A stretch of 64,000 bases of DNA from Mycoplasmopsis mustelae (GTDB lineage: Bacteria > Bacillota_I > Bacilli_A > Mycoplasmatales > Metamycoplasmataceae): contig NZ_SOCN01000002.1 in assembly GCF_004365095.1 (NCBI RefSeq), forward strand, positions 1 through 64,000, read 5' to 3'. A program made the translations under genes and the position numbers. Below, in pieces: positions 3,927 to 24,105 of this stretch (the first letter of the stretch is position 1; every line of letters begins with the position of its first letter). Below the pieces are notes generated by a model. That model saw only the letters and a program-made list of their open reading frames with translations. It was not told the origin of the DNA and ran no database searches.

Positions 3927-4556
3927 ATGACAAACAAAACAAATAAACACCAAAAAATAAAATTTATTGAAGCATTAAAACACGAACTTAAAACGATCAA
4001 TCCCGACATTGATTTCAATGGTGTAATTGCTGAACTAACATTATCAGCCATTGAGAGTTTGTTTGATAAATTAGCTTCATTACTTTCATTACAACAGCAA
4101 TGAGAACAAAAAATTAAACCCGAACGAGTTTCAAAATACAACCACGAAATTCAAACACTAACTGAAAGTATCAACCGAATAAAAAAACAACTAAGCATCG
4201 AGCAAAAAATACAAAACGAAAAACTTAAACAATTCAAAGAAAGTTCACCAAACATTGAGGATGCATTACTTTATTCGCATATCAAGCGATGAACCGATAG
4301 CGGCTTTCGCACTTTGTTAAGTTTGCAAAAGCGATTAGACAAATTGCAGGACGAACTTTGAAAGTTAAATCATTCAACCAACTTTTACAGCATCGCAAGT
4401 GATGGATCTTTAATTGATAAAAGTAATGAAACTAATAAAATTTTTGAAAATATACAAAACCACTTGCAAGGCAATTTTTATACAAGTATCGCTCGCGAGA
4501 AACTTAAAAAGCTTATAAGTCAAAGTCAAGGGGAAGACGACGATGAATTATTTTAA
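3927..4556 (+). CDS. Putative terminase small subunit
   Basis: A 209-residue, mostly helical and coiled-coil protein with an acidic C-terminus (EDDDELF). ATG at 3927 follows AAAAAGGA. Three TGA codons are read as Trp. It overlaps the start of the large terminase gene by 14 bases, the usual place of the small, DNA-recognising subunit that binds the cos or pac site and loads the motor. I see no clear helix-turn-helix and call it by position, size and helical nature only. A scaffold-like or other packaging accessory protein is the alternative. Confidence 0.55.
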
Positions 4557-6348
4557 GCATTCTCTCTGAGAAAATGTTAATGAGTTTATTAAAAACATAG
4601 CAACCGAACAAATAGACGAGCCAACATCGTATGCGTTAAAGGTGTATCAAAATAAGATAGTCGCCTCTGAAATGGTGCGATTACAAGCCGCAAGGCATCT
4701 TTTGTTTTTATATCACCAATCAACCGACCCCGACTTTGGTTTTATCTATGATGCGAGTGCATATCAAAAGGTCGCAGACTTTGCGAAGCATATTATCATA
4801 CCGGAAACAAAAAAGCCGTTTATCTTTACCGACTTTCGCGCATTTATCACGGGATTTGTTTTCGGATGACGATATAGAAACGACCCGAGTCGCAATATTA
4901 CGACCGAAGTCTTTGACATCGAAGCGCGTAAGCAATGGAAAAGCAGTTTTTGAGCGATGATAGCATTAGCGACATCTTTAGGACTTTTAAAAGACGGAGC
5001 GGCCGAAGTATATTTTTGTGGGCCGCATAAAGAAAGCTCGAAAATACCTTACAAAATTGCGCTCGGTTACATTAAGACAAGCAAGAAAATTAAAAAACTT
5101 TTTGAGCGAGCTAATAGTGTAAGAATTATTAGCAAAAAGATGGGTGAAATTAAAGCGCTCCCTTTTGATAAAGCGGGATTGGAAGGGAAGAATCCATCCT
5201 TAGTTATCTTAACTGAGTATCATTTACATAAAGACGAAACGATGCAAGAAAGCGCGATGACATCTAAAAATTTAAGTAGGAAAAACCAATTAATAGTGTA
5301 TGATACTACTAAGGGAGCAAATATTGAGTCGGTGTGTTTTCACCGCGAACGAGATTATAAGAATTTTTTAATTTCGCAAATTTTAAACCCTGAAAGCATT
5401 CATCCTAATTTTTCTGTGTTTTTGTTTTGTGCAGAATTAGATGAAGCAGATTGAGAAAATTGAAAAGATAGCAAATTATGGAAAAAGAGTAACCCGGGAT
5501 TGGGTGTTACCGTTTCATTGCAAGACTTAGAAGCAGAAGCATCAAAAATTACCAACATAAGCGCCGAGGCTGAGTTTAAGATTAAGCGACTTGGGATTTG
5601 AGTTAATACAGGAATGGCCTACTTTTCATTCTCCGATATAATGGAGAGTCAAAAAGCAAACAAGGCCAAAGTGGAGGAATATCTACAACACCACAACCTG
5701 AAAGAATTAAATGCATTGATGGGAATCGACTTATCAAGCACGAGCGATACAACGGCTATATGTTTGAACTGAGAAATCCCGCAAGCAGATGGTGAAAGTA
5801 TTTACCTTTTTAAAATTCACTCCTTTATACCATCGGATTCAATCGCTAAGAAAGAAATAAGCGATAAAGCACGATACCGGCAATGATTGCAGCAGGGACT
5901 ACTCACAGCATCGCAAGGGAAAGTGATTGATTATTCGTTGGTAGTTGATAAAATAAGAGAATGAAAAAATTTATACAATATTAAGAAATTATTATACGAC
6001 CGATGACGATTTTTTGCAGTTAAAGACAACATCTTAAAAAATGAAGTTTTTAGTGACGAACAAGTCCAGGACGTAAAGCAGGGAGTATATTTAAATCCCG
6101 CCTTTCAACAGTTTGAGATTAAGTTAAGAAATAAAAAAATTTATATATTAGATGACAACGAATTAGTGTTTTCACATATTTTAAATGTAGAGGTGCAACA
6201 TTCTAAAAATAGTACCGAGACTTTTTTAATTAAAAAACTATCAACCAATTCGCGCATCGATGCATTTATTGCGATGCTTAATACCATAAGTTGAAGACAT
6301 AATATAACAGATAAAACGACGGAAGCATTTTTTGATTTAATATCTTAA
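4543..6348 (+). CDS. terL: Terminase large subunit (Terminase_1, HK97-like)
   Basis: 601 residues in one frame through many TGA-Trp codons. The N-terminal ATPase shows an adenine-binding region, a Walker-A-like RKQWKSS around residue 130 and a Walker-B-like LVILTEYHLHKD around residue 225. The C-terminal RNase H-like nuclease shows GIDLSSTSDTTA (first acidic residue), LLYDRWRF and a late Asp in SRIDAFIAM. This is the motor that pumps DNA into the prohead and cuts it. Two oddities: the usual Gly of the Walker A loop appears as Trp (TGG codon), and the DE of Walker B is TE. Start ATG at 4543 lies inside the end of terS; the portal follows 31 bases downstream. Confidence 0.93.
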
Positions 6349-6379: not shown

Positions 6380-7729
6380 TTGGCGTCTATTTTTAAGAAT
6401 TTAAAGAATTTATTTACACCAAAACGCATCAACGATATACCGGAAATAGGGTATCGTAATTTTTCTATATCTTTGAGCGACCCTATTGTTGCTAAAACTA
6501 TCAAAACATTAACTCCGGCCGAGTTTCTAACCTTTGGACTAGCCGTGCGAGCAGTGCAAATGATAGCTAATGATATAGCAAAAGTAAATTTTAGACATTC
6601 AAAATATAACAAAGACAACGACAGCGAAAACATCAACAATTCGCAACTTTTGAAAATTTTAAACAAAAAACCAAACGACAAGCAAACACCCTGAGAATTT
6701 AAGAAGTCACTGATATGGAATTTATTAATTTATGGAAGTGCACCTCTTTTAAAAGTAAGCGACCAAACCGGAGCCTTGATTGAATTAATACCGGTGTACC
6801 CACCTTATCTAACTAAAAAACAAAAAGACAACGGTGAGACATTTTATCAATTCAAGCGAGATAATAACGACCCGATAAATTTCTTAGATGATGAGATTAT
6901 ATTTATCGAGTATGAAATCATCCCTGGTTTTGATACTGCTAACATTCGTACCTTATTCAAAAGCACCATTAGCAAAATACGCGAAAACGAGCTTTCAATG
7001 TTAAATGCGATAGCCAACGACCTTTCGACATCTTTATTTATTAAAATAAAAGAAAGCACCAACCCTGAGCAAAGACGATTAGCAAATACAGCGCTAAAGG
7101 AAATGTTAGAAAATCAAAAGAAGTCGGGAAGTTTTGGAATCGTTATCGATGAGAAATGAGACATCGGTCAAGCGACCGAAATTATAAATGCACGTATCGA
7201 CTTTCAAACAAGAAACAGTCTCGGACGAGAATTTGCTGCAAGTTTGGGAATACCGCCGGCTAAATTAGGAATTGATGATCCGAACAAATATAACAGTAGC
7301 GCCGAATTAAACCGGGCGTATGTAGATAATTCACTTAAACCGCTACTGATTAACATATGCGAGAAATTAACCGACAAATTATTAAGCAATGATGACGAGT
7401 TTATAACGTTTCGTACCTTAGACCTTTTATCAATAGATTTAAAAGCAATCCAAGAATTTGCAACGAGTGCAATAAATAGCGGCTACGCGACGGCCAACGA
7501 GATACGCGCACTTATCGGACTAGACAAACACCCTGACGGTGACCACTTATTAGCAAACGGAGCATTGACACCGATAAATTCATTAATTAACAACAACAAC
7601 CAAACACCACCAAAAACAAGCGATAACGAAAACCAAAGCGACGATAAAGACGAGCAAACAACGCAGCAGGAGGCTAATATTGAAACCGATAATTATAATA
7701 ACCAAAAACAAACCAACAACAGCAAATAA
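6380..7729 (+). CDS. Portal protein (HK97/SPP1-like phage portal)
   Basis: 449 residues. The start is TTG at 6380, seven bases after AAGGAG, giving MASIFKNLKNLF. The segment IPEIGYRNFS...TPAEFLTFG is the usual N-terminal entry. The stretch PGFDTANIRTLFKSTISKI near residue 180 and the C-terminal helix TANEIRALIGLDKHPDGD are characteristic of HK97-family portals. A polar tail rich in Asn, Asp and Gln follows. The dodecameric portal forms the DNA entry vertex and docks the terminase. The gene overlaps the next reading frame by 50 bases. Confidence 0.92.
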
Positions 7730-9497
7730 TGAAAATAAGCGAACCATCGAGCTGACAATTGAATTAGATAGTTGAAGTCCAATTTATGAAAATTATGGAA
7801 CCAAGTACCGCGAACAAATCGCTCCGAATTGTTTTGATTTTGATACCGAGATAAGCAAACAAGAAATAAACAGTTATTTAGATCATAAAGTAAGTATCGA
7901 GCATTTATTAGCAAGCACTAAGAACAAGTCGATGCAAGTAAGAAAAGAAAATAACAAAATAATAGCAAACATCCCCGTCGATGAAGCTAACCCGCTTTTA
8001 AAGAAAGCCGCCGATTTAATAGCCGATGGAGTTATTGAAAGTAATTCGTTTATTTTTCAACCCTTAGAAGTAGAAGTTAATAAAATAAAAGACAATCCGG
8101 AACTGCAATTAGAGCTAACTTATACCAAGGCAAAACTAATGAGCATCGACCCGGTTTTTGAAGGGTTTTATCCACAAGATAAATGCAGAGTATACGATGC
8201 AAGCAACAACGAAAATATTAATATTTTAGAATATTTACAAGGAGTAAAAATGAAACAAGAAACAAGCCAAGAACAAAAACAACCAACACCAAACAACGAT
8301 ACAGAAATTCAAGCATTAAATGAAAAGATAGCAGAATTAGAAGCACAAGTGCTAAACCAACAAGCACAACGTGATGAAATGTACGAAAAACTACAAAAGA
8401 GATTTGAAGCAGTTAAAGAACAAAACGAACAACCAAAAGCACCCCAGCTATCTTTTAAAGAGTTAAGAGACAAAGCAAAAGCAGGAACAGCAACAGCGCA
8501 AGAATTAGCACAATTGAACAACGAGATGCTGGACTTATTAACCGAAGCAGATAAAAACGAAATAAGAGTAGCGCACCCAGCAACCTATGCGAAACTACAA
8601 AAAAGAGCCCTAGATGGAACCACTAACGAAAAAGGACTCGCAGTAATTGAAACACAAAGTATGCCGGGAATTTTAACCGATTGAAACGCATTGTTCCCAG
8701 AATATACTGAACTTGCATCAAAGTTTAACCTTACCGGGTTAGATCAGTTAGTAAAGAACGTCTATGTCCCAGATAACAGCGATATTAGTGCAATAAATGA
8801 AGGAGCAGATTCAACAGCATTAGGTGGGAAAACTTTTCAAGTAAAATTCAGTCCCGTAAGATATTCAACATACATTACACAAAATAACGCCCTAACACAC
8901 GGAGCGGAGTTATGAAACGCACAAGTGCAGAATGCTAAAAATTCAATTATTCGCGCATTACGTAAAAAATTCTATGAATCACTCTTTACACATGCAACAG
9001 CAACCGTTCCAACTAATGGAACATACAGTGGTGGAGTAACCCAAGAGGCTAAATATACCACTAAAGCAACCGGAAAATTTAGCTGAAGCGACATCGATGC
9101 GTTAGTTAGAGAAATACAAGATAAAGGCGGAGATGATAAGGTAAAAGACTTTGTGATTGTAATGCATCCAACAACTTTAGCAGCATTAGAGGAACCTTTC
9201 ATTAATTCAACCACCGCATCGTTTATTAATACTGTGTATGATACTATTAACAAAACATATCGTGGGTTACAAATTATCACAACCTCAATGTACCCAGATA
9301 ACACCATCGCAACAAACAAGAAGGTCGCAGTATTGTTTGATAAAAACGCCGTAGCAAGTTATGGACTTTCATTTGTAGTAGAAAACGACCCTTATAAAGA
9401 TATGAGTAAAGACCAAATCAACACTTACATTAGAACACGCGGAGAGATTAAATTAGTAGACCCGCATGTGCATTCACGTTTTGTAGTAGTTAAGTAA
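7680..9497 (+). CDS. Prohead protease-scaffold-major capsid protein in one reading frame
   Basis: 605 residues from a TTG at 7680, six bases after CAGGAGG, to TAA at 9495-9497 without TAA or TAG between. Residues about 1-185 resemble the HK97-type prohead protease (S78): a His in YLDHKVSIEH and the NSFIFQPLEVE segment after DGVIES, though I cannot confirm the full catalytic set. Residues about 195-320 are a Gln/Glu/Lys coiled coil like the scaffolding delta domain. The rest is an HK97-fold capsid: TQSMPGILTDW, the DFVIVMHPTTLAAL helix, RGLQIITTSMYP and RTRGEIKLVDPHVHSRF. A second start with a strong ribosome site at 8250 would make scaffold plus capsid (415 aa) alone. Confidence 0.85.
8239..8252 (+). 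promoter_or_regulatory. Internal ribosome site and start codon inside the protease-capsid ORF
   Basis: AAGGAG at 8239-8244, five spacer bases and ATG at 8250-8252, in the same frame as the long ORF. It would start MKQETSQEQKQ, exactly at the scaffold coiled coil. This offers separate production of the abundant capsid precursor. Confidence 0.7.
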
Positions 9498-9562: not shown

Positions 9563-9892
9563 ATGTGACCAAATGAAGTTATTTATGATTGATTGCAGCA
9601 ACTTAAACAAAATCTCGCAATTGCAGATGATAGCAGGGATGACTTATTATTAGACTATATAGAAATAGCACGCGAGAATATATGGAAACAATACTACGAA
9701 CTAGAAACCGACGAAAACGGAATACCAGACGAACACCCATGATCCTGAGATTTAAAAACGAAGCTGGCCACCTTACATTTAGCAGCCTTATATGTTAGCA
9801 ACCCCGACACCAACAACATCGCAAATAGTGTAATAGATTCGCGAATGATTTTTAAAATATTAGGAGATAGGATACCATATGGCAAGAATTAA
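9563..9892 (+). CDS. Head-tail connector (HK97 gp6-like)
   Basis: 109 residues, starting ATG-TGA (Met-Trp) at 9563. The central DDSRDDLLLDYIEIARENI is the typical opening helix pair of gp6-like connectors (Phage_connect_1), which form a ring under the portal. Trp at the second position and in WSWD come from TGA codons. Only a weak AGG precedes the ATG. It overlaps the next gene by 14 bases. The 65 bases before it, after the capsid stop, contain purine- and pyrimidine-rich stretches but no clear terminator. Confidence 0.75.
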
Positions 9893-23355: not shown

Positions 23356-24105
23356 ATGAAAACATTGGATGATTACTTACAATACTGTAAAAATCGTAAT
23401 TTTAGCGAGATAACTATATATAACTACCAAACATTACTAAATAAAATCAATTATGAAAATATTAATATAAAAGACGTTGTGCGCATTATTTTAAGTGCTA
23501 AGAGTGCAAACACCCAAATTGCTTTTCGTGCGCGATTTATTAGTTTTCTTAAGTATTTAGGACGTTTAGATTTAGTTGAAACATTACGCGAGCTAAAACT
23601 AAAAAAACCTTATGATGCTTACTATCAAACACTAACAAAACAACAGGTTTTAGAATTTACCAAAATTGAAGAGTTTGATACTAAAACAACCGCAAAAATG
23701 AAAACAATTCTTCGCTTTATGTTTCAAACTGGTATTCGTTTGGGTGAACTTTCAAAACTGCAAATAAAAAACGGACGTATGTTTGTAATTGATGGTAAGG
23801 GTTCAAAGACACGCGAAATCTTTTATGATAATAATACCTTTACAAAATTACAAAGTTACGTAGGATGAAAAAATACACCATCGTCCGAAATTGGTAAATG
23901 GTGTAAAAAGGTGTTTCAAAATGATAATATTACCCCACATTCACTACGCCGTTCTTTTGCGACTTATTTAAATTCACAAGGCGTAGATATTGCAATAATA
24001 TCAAAACAATTAGGACACGAAAATATTAACACTACTTATGCTTATATACATACCAGCCGCGAAAGTGCTGTATCGATTTATAATAATTTTATGACGATGG
24101 ACTAA
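23356..24105 (+). CDS. int: Phage tyrosine recombinase (integrase)
   Basis: 249 residues. It has an N-terminal SAM-like DNA-binding domain (TLDDYLQYCKNRNFSEITIY) and a C-terminal catalytic domain. The first Arg lies in TGIRLGELSKL, followed by GKGSKTREI with the Lys. Box II reads HSLRRSFATYLNSQG, then QLGHENINTTYAYIH with the Gly-His and the nucleophilic Tyr. All catalytic positions appear intact. It is XerC/D-like in size. It should integrate and excise the 35-kb element. Unusually it lies in the middle of the prophage, far from the proposed att sites. Its stop codon overlaps the stop of the convergent primase gene. Confidence 0.92.

Follow-up and report, generated by a model that had tools for sequence, protein, structure and literature searches.

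The window considered here, i.e., positions 1 to 64,000 of the forward strand of contig NZ_SOCN01000002.1 of Mycoplasmopsis mustelae (assembly GCF_004365095.1), belongs to an 836-kb, mycoplasma-type genome that has to be read with translation table 4, in which TGA encodes tryptophan. On the plus strand, a phage head module comprises, in order, genes encoding the terminase large subunit (4543..6348), the portal protein (6380..7729), a 605-residue polyprotein assigned as prohead protease, scaffold and major capsid protein (7680..9497) and a gp6-like head-tail connector (9563..9892), with a tyrosine integrase being encoded downstream of the module, at 23356. The polyprotein ORF begins with a TTG codon at position 7680, such that the portal gene overlaps the start of the protease-encoding region by 50 nt. 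This codon is preceded by the Shine-Dalgarno (SD) sequence AGGAGG at 7668..7673 (dG -10.3 kcal/mol). A second SD sequence, AAGGAG, is found inside the ORF at 8239..8244 (dG -7.8 kcal/mol), upstream of an in-frame ATG at 8250..8252 (Met191) that represents the putative start of a nested scaffold-capsid product. The element carrying this ORF, as its head gene, is a mycoplasma prophage of the MAgV1-like type; the MAgV1-like elements are a published group of mycoplasma phages and prophages (PMC7466169, PMC11004492), with phage PMF329 of Mycoplasmopsis felis forming visible tailed virions (PMC11004492).

An earlier note on this DNA had claimed that no stop codon separates the protease-like and capsid parts of the ORF. 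This was borne out, with all 605 codons being open under table 4, including four TGA codons (W32, W335, W412 and W469). A reading according to table 11, in which the frame falls apart at those TGA codons, was rejected, since they encode tryptophan. A tblastn search revealed one phage relative, Mycoplasmopsis phage vB_Mfe_PMF329 (OR753717), the product of which is annotated as 'prohead protein', while a search of genomes across the family added nine more full-length copies and one decayed remnant. The comparison set thus comprised 11 sequences, namely, the window sequence, PMF329 and the nine copies from mycoplasma genomes. In every one of these, protease and capsid are encoded in a single unbroken frame, with the ten relatives being 37-67% identical. 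No confirmed homologues of the window protein were detected in IMG/VR or in a scan of GTDB contigs, nor, at the sensitivity used, outside the family, where 320 genomes from the order and a class-level sample of 395 were covered. As such, no outgroup in which the parts are encoded by separate genes is at hand. At one locus in a relative genome (L026, 6183-7277), a decayed second scaffold-capsid copy containing in-frame TAA stops adjoins F1-ATPase-like alpha/beta genes, without a protease or other phage parts. In another family of the same order, genomes of 1.4-1.9 Mb (L039-L042 and L048-L054) each contain one to five unfused S78 protease ORFs, mostly of about 300 residues.

The N-terminal part of the polyprotein (residues 1 to about 175; 7680..8204) is a predicted S78-type protease. 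His-69 (codon 7884-7886) and Ser-123 (codon 8046-8048) are invariant in all 11 sequences; in an alignment to a known head protease, they coincide with its HD and SMSFGF motifs. Although the window protein falls below the cut-off of the Pfam S78 profile, homologues score above it (e.g., 1.1e-8 and 8.6e-7). An AlphaFold model of residues 1-189 (pLDDT 80.7) gave no significant match when compared to the PDB using Foldseek. Subsequent use of VIA-align placed T4 gp21 first among structural matches (Z 9.7; 140 residues; rmsd 3.3 A), with herpesvirus proteases occupying ranks 2-8 (Z 2.6-3.6). The same model matched predicted phage head proteases in BFVD, with E values down to 4.6e-11. The S78 assignment proposed in the earlier note thus survived examination by structure prediction, given the T4 gp21 fold and the Pfam scores of the relatives.

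The protease domain is followed by a disordered linker (8205..8294) that includes no conserved residues, is modeled with low confidence and contains the putative nested start. In the structure model, residues 161-209 are of low confidence, while residues 206-248 form a long helix within the delta-like scaffold domain (residues 191-309; 8250..8606), such that the internal ATG precedes the coiled coil. The positions reported earlier for AAGGAG and ATG (8239-8252), said to lie at the scaffold boundary, proved correct, with both falling in the linker. Conservation within the capsid part begins with an R-x-L-D-x-T motif at residues 309-314, after the scaffold. On the basis of such conservation, scaffold cleavage probably occurs near R309/A310, in the region of K308, R309 and A310 (8601..8609); cleavage before A310 would yield a capsid protein with a computed mass of about 32.7 kDa. 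The HK97-fold major capsid domain is encoded by 8607..9494. Structural alignment of residues 337-605, as modeled by AlphaFold, to HK97-fold capsids gave the best score with the GTA capsid (Z 16.7), with HK97 itself (1ohg) scoring Z 12.8; the TIGR01554 match of the capsid part (4.1e-6) lay slightly under the cut-off.

An SD-like site and an in-frame start codon (ATG in ten sequences, GTG in one) were found 16-31 codons past the conserved CRVY motif of the protease in all 11 sequences, even though the linker protein is unconserved, with no invariant column between alignment positions 170 and 287. When the window sequence was considered by itself, the strength of the internal SD was ordinary for the protein encoded (p = 0.65, synonymous shuffle), and hence the case for a nested start draws on comparison across relatives. 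This ordinary strength is in line with the possibility that only the full polyprotein is made, with each capsid subunit carrying a protease that removes both itself and the scaffold and the SD-like sites being a by-product of a linker rich in Lys, Glu and Gly; other phages, moreover, contain such fusions with no nested start having been described. Across the 11 sequences, however, the summed SD energy was -91.7, as compared to a mean of -54.1 (sd 6.1; z = -6.2) for shuffles in which protein and codon usage were held fixed, a value that, given the shared ancestry of these sequences, reflects maintenance rather than 11 independent origins. None of 5,000 shuffles gave an equally strong sum, and the signal was limited to the coding frame, with sums of -23.2 and 0 being obtained for the +1 and +2 frames, respectively. 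This joint excess, together with the presence of the site in every sequence despite the lack of linker conservation, argues against production of the full polyprotein only, which is accordingly considered unlikely. Furthermore, in nine of the 11 sequences, no 45-codon window outside the linker-scaffold region equaled the linker signal, and the strength of the internal SD in the window (-7.8) is typical of SDs preceding other genes of the same phage. The 3' end of the host 16S rRNA was not found in the genome; SD use is instead suggested by AGGAG-like sites before most of the phage genes.

The internal site could also be a relic. The protease/scaffold boundary is where the capsid gene of most HK97-like phages begins, and a formerly separate capsid gene could have lost the stop codon upstream while retaining a start that is now little used. 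Still, the SD signal exceeds synonymous expectation among relatives that are only about 37-67% identical, meaning that the site has been maintained, and a relic is thus regarded as very improbable. That the open frame is an artefact, with a sequencing error masking a stop near 8240, an outcome that the earlier note had named as fatal to its proposal, was looked for and can be dismissed, since ten further genomes show no interruption of this frame. The comparative sequence evidence therefore supports selection across relatives for a nested start where the scaffold begins. Moreover, the conserved frame, the predicted folds and the SD excess over shuffles together make it likely that a nested product of 415 residues beginning at Met191 (computed mass 46.4 kDa) exists beside the full-length fusion (68.2 kDa). 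In four relatives (L001, L024, L020 and L022), a second strong SD with an in-frame ATG or GTG is seen deeper in the scaffold, at ORF residues 275, 274, 243 and 296, respectively; a third, shorter capsid precursor may possibly be generated in these.

With production of two nested products as the preferred reading, the following scheme is considered quite probable on the basis of sequence comparison and structural models. Initiation at TTG 7680 would generate the 68-kDa protease-scaffold-capsid fusion, while initiation at ATG 8250 of the same mRNA would generate the 46-kDa scaffold-capsid precursor. Because the scaffold and capsid parts are common to both, fusion molecules could co-assemble with the precursor and join the prohead as minor subunits, bringing the protease inside. 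The packaged protease would then remove the scaffold, probably near R309/A310, as well as itself, leaving a mature capsid protein of about 33 kDa. The single frame, its conservation, the folds and the conserved start signal underlie this scheme as observations, while initiation at the nested start, the relative amounts of the products, the position of the cut and the manner of co-assembly are inferred.

As to the ratio, it had been proposed earlier that capsid precursors would far outnumber protease fusions. As stated, this is not supported, since in ten of the 11 sequences, including that of the window (-10.3 vs. -7.8 kcal/mol), the SD of the upstream protease start at least equals the internal SD in strength. 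The only possible advantages of the internal start in the window are the codon itself (ATG rather than TTG) and the 50-nt overlap of the upstream start with the portal gene. In HK97, about 60 protease molecules are needed for 415 capsid subunits (PMC12749128), such that a fusion alone, with protease and capsid at 1:1, would be unusual and a mixed ratio makes sense. If two products are indeed made, then a single gene suffices for protease, scaffold and capsid, yet the phage avoids producing one protease per capsid subunit, with a co-assembling fusion guaranteeing that the protease is packaged. The 'prohead protein' of MAgV1-like phages should, in that case, be re-annotated as a protease-scaffold-capsid protein with two products. 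The ratio of protease to capsid is directly testable in a virion-producing phage.

It is conceivable, although tentative and rather less likely than otherwise, that a conserved second start between protease and scaffold is a general, hidden feature of unrelated protease-capsid fusions, such that annotations as single polyproteins are wrong and initiation sets the protease:capsid ratio. Four non-mycoplasma fusions were examined, namely, those of ScienceWizSam, 1706, FP_oengus and Anseraureola. In each of these, the linker contains the strongest internal combination of SD and start, with that of Anseraureola being a tie. When the same shuffle test was applied to 65 dereplicated members of the ScienceWizSam family, a site at residue 306 was found in 55 but was weaker than synonymous expectation (z = +3.5), while a site near residue 241 reached only z = -1.8. 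Similar SD-like sites occur within the capsid of this family, at residues 467 and 610, indicating that such sites can arise from protein motifs alone. Given these mixed results, no general rule is claimed, and the generalization is offered only as a lead. Lactobacillus phage SA-C12 was dropped as a fusion comparator, as its close relatives encode the capsid in a separate frame. In both this phage (L055, 24521-26710) and Lactobacillus phage Maenad (L146, 1381-2601), a protease-scaffold ORF contains a very strong SD (dG -12.3 and -11.6, respectively) preceding an in-frame TTG directly after the protease, with Maenad and the relatives of SA-C12 encoding the capsid separately. This arrangement looks like an undescribed nested scaffold of the lambda C/Nu3 type, with the SA-C12 TTG being better read as the start of a scaffold-only product.

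Nested in-frame starts are themselves known from lambda C/Nu3. In lambda C/Nu3, as in Mu I/Z, an in-frame internal start yields a long product that bears the protease and a short one that does not, as proposed here. In those phages, however, the nested product comprises nothing but scaffold, the capsid having a gene of its own, whereas the nested product predicted here consists of scaffold and capsid, there being no stop codon before the capsid part; lambda C, moreover, belongs to a protease family different from the S78 type. The comparison to lambda drawn in the earlier note thus holds for the principle of a nested start but extends neither to the content of the nested product nor to the protease. 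HK97 presents the same domain order, the same folds and a scaffold attached to the capsid, with the gp4 protease preceding the gp5 capsid protein and its N-terminal delta scaffold, yet protease and capsid are there encoded by two genes rather than one. Fusions of protease and capsid are known in actinophages and described as 'common in small-genome siphoviruses' (PMC9671004; see also PMC9753647), and Lactococcus phage 1706 likewise contains a known fusion of this kind. These other fusions similarly combine an S78-type protease, a scaffold and an HK97 capsid in a single ORF but differ in sequence, and the evidence for an internal start is weaker or mixed. The closest known systems also include the MAgV1-like phages themselves, as represented by PMF329, where a homologous single gene (about 65-67% identity) is found in the same terminase-portal-prohead order. 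In the available parts of the reports on this group, the gene is labelled only as 'prohead protein', with neither the fused domains nor the nested start being described (PMC11004492, PMC7466169). No report joining a nested start with a protease-capsid fusion was found in the open-access literature. The type of fusion encountered here is already known; the conserved nested start is likely new.
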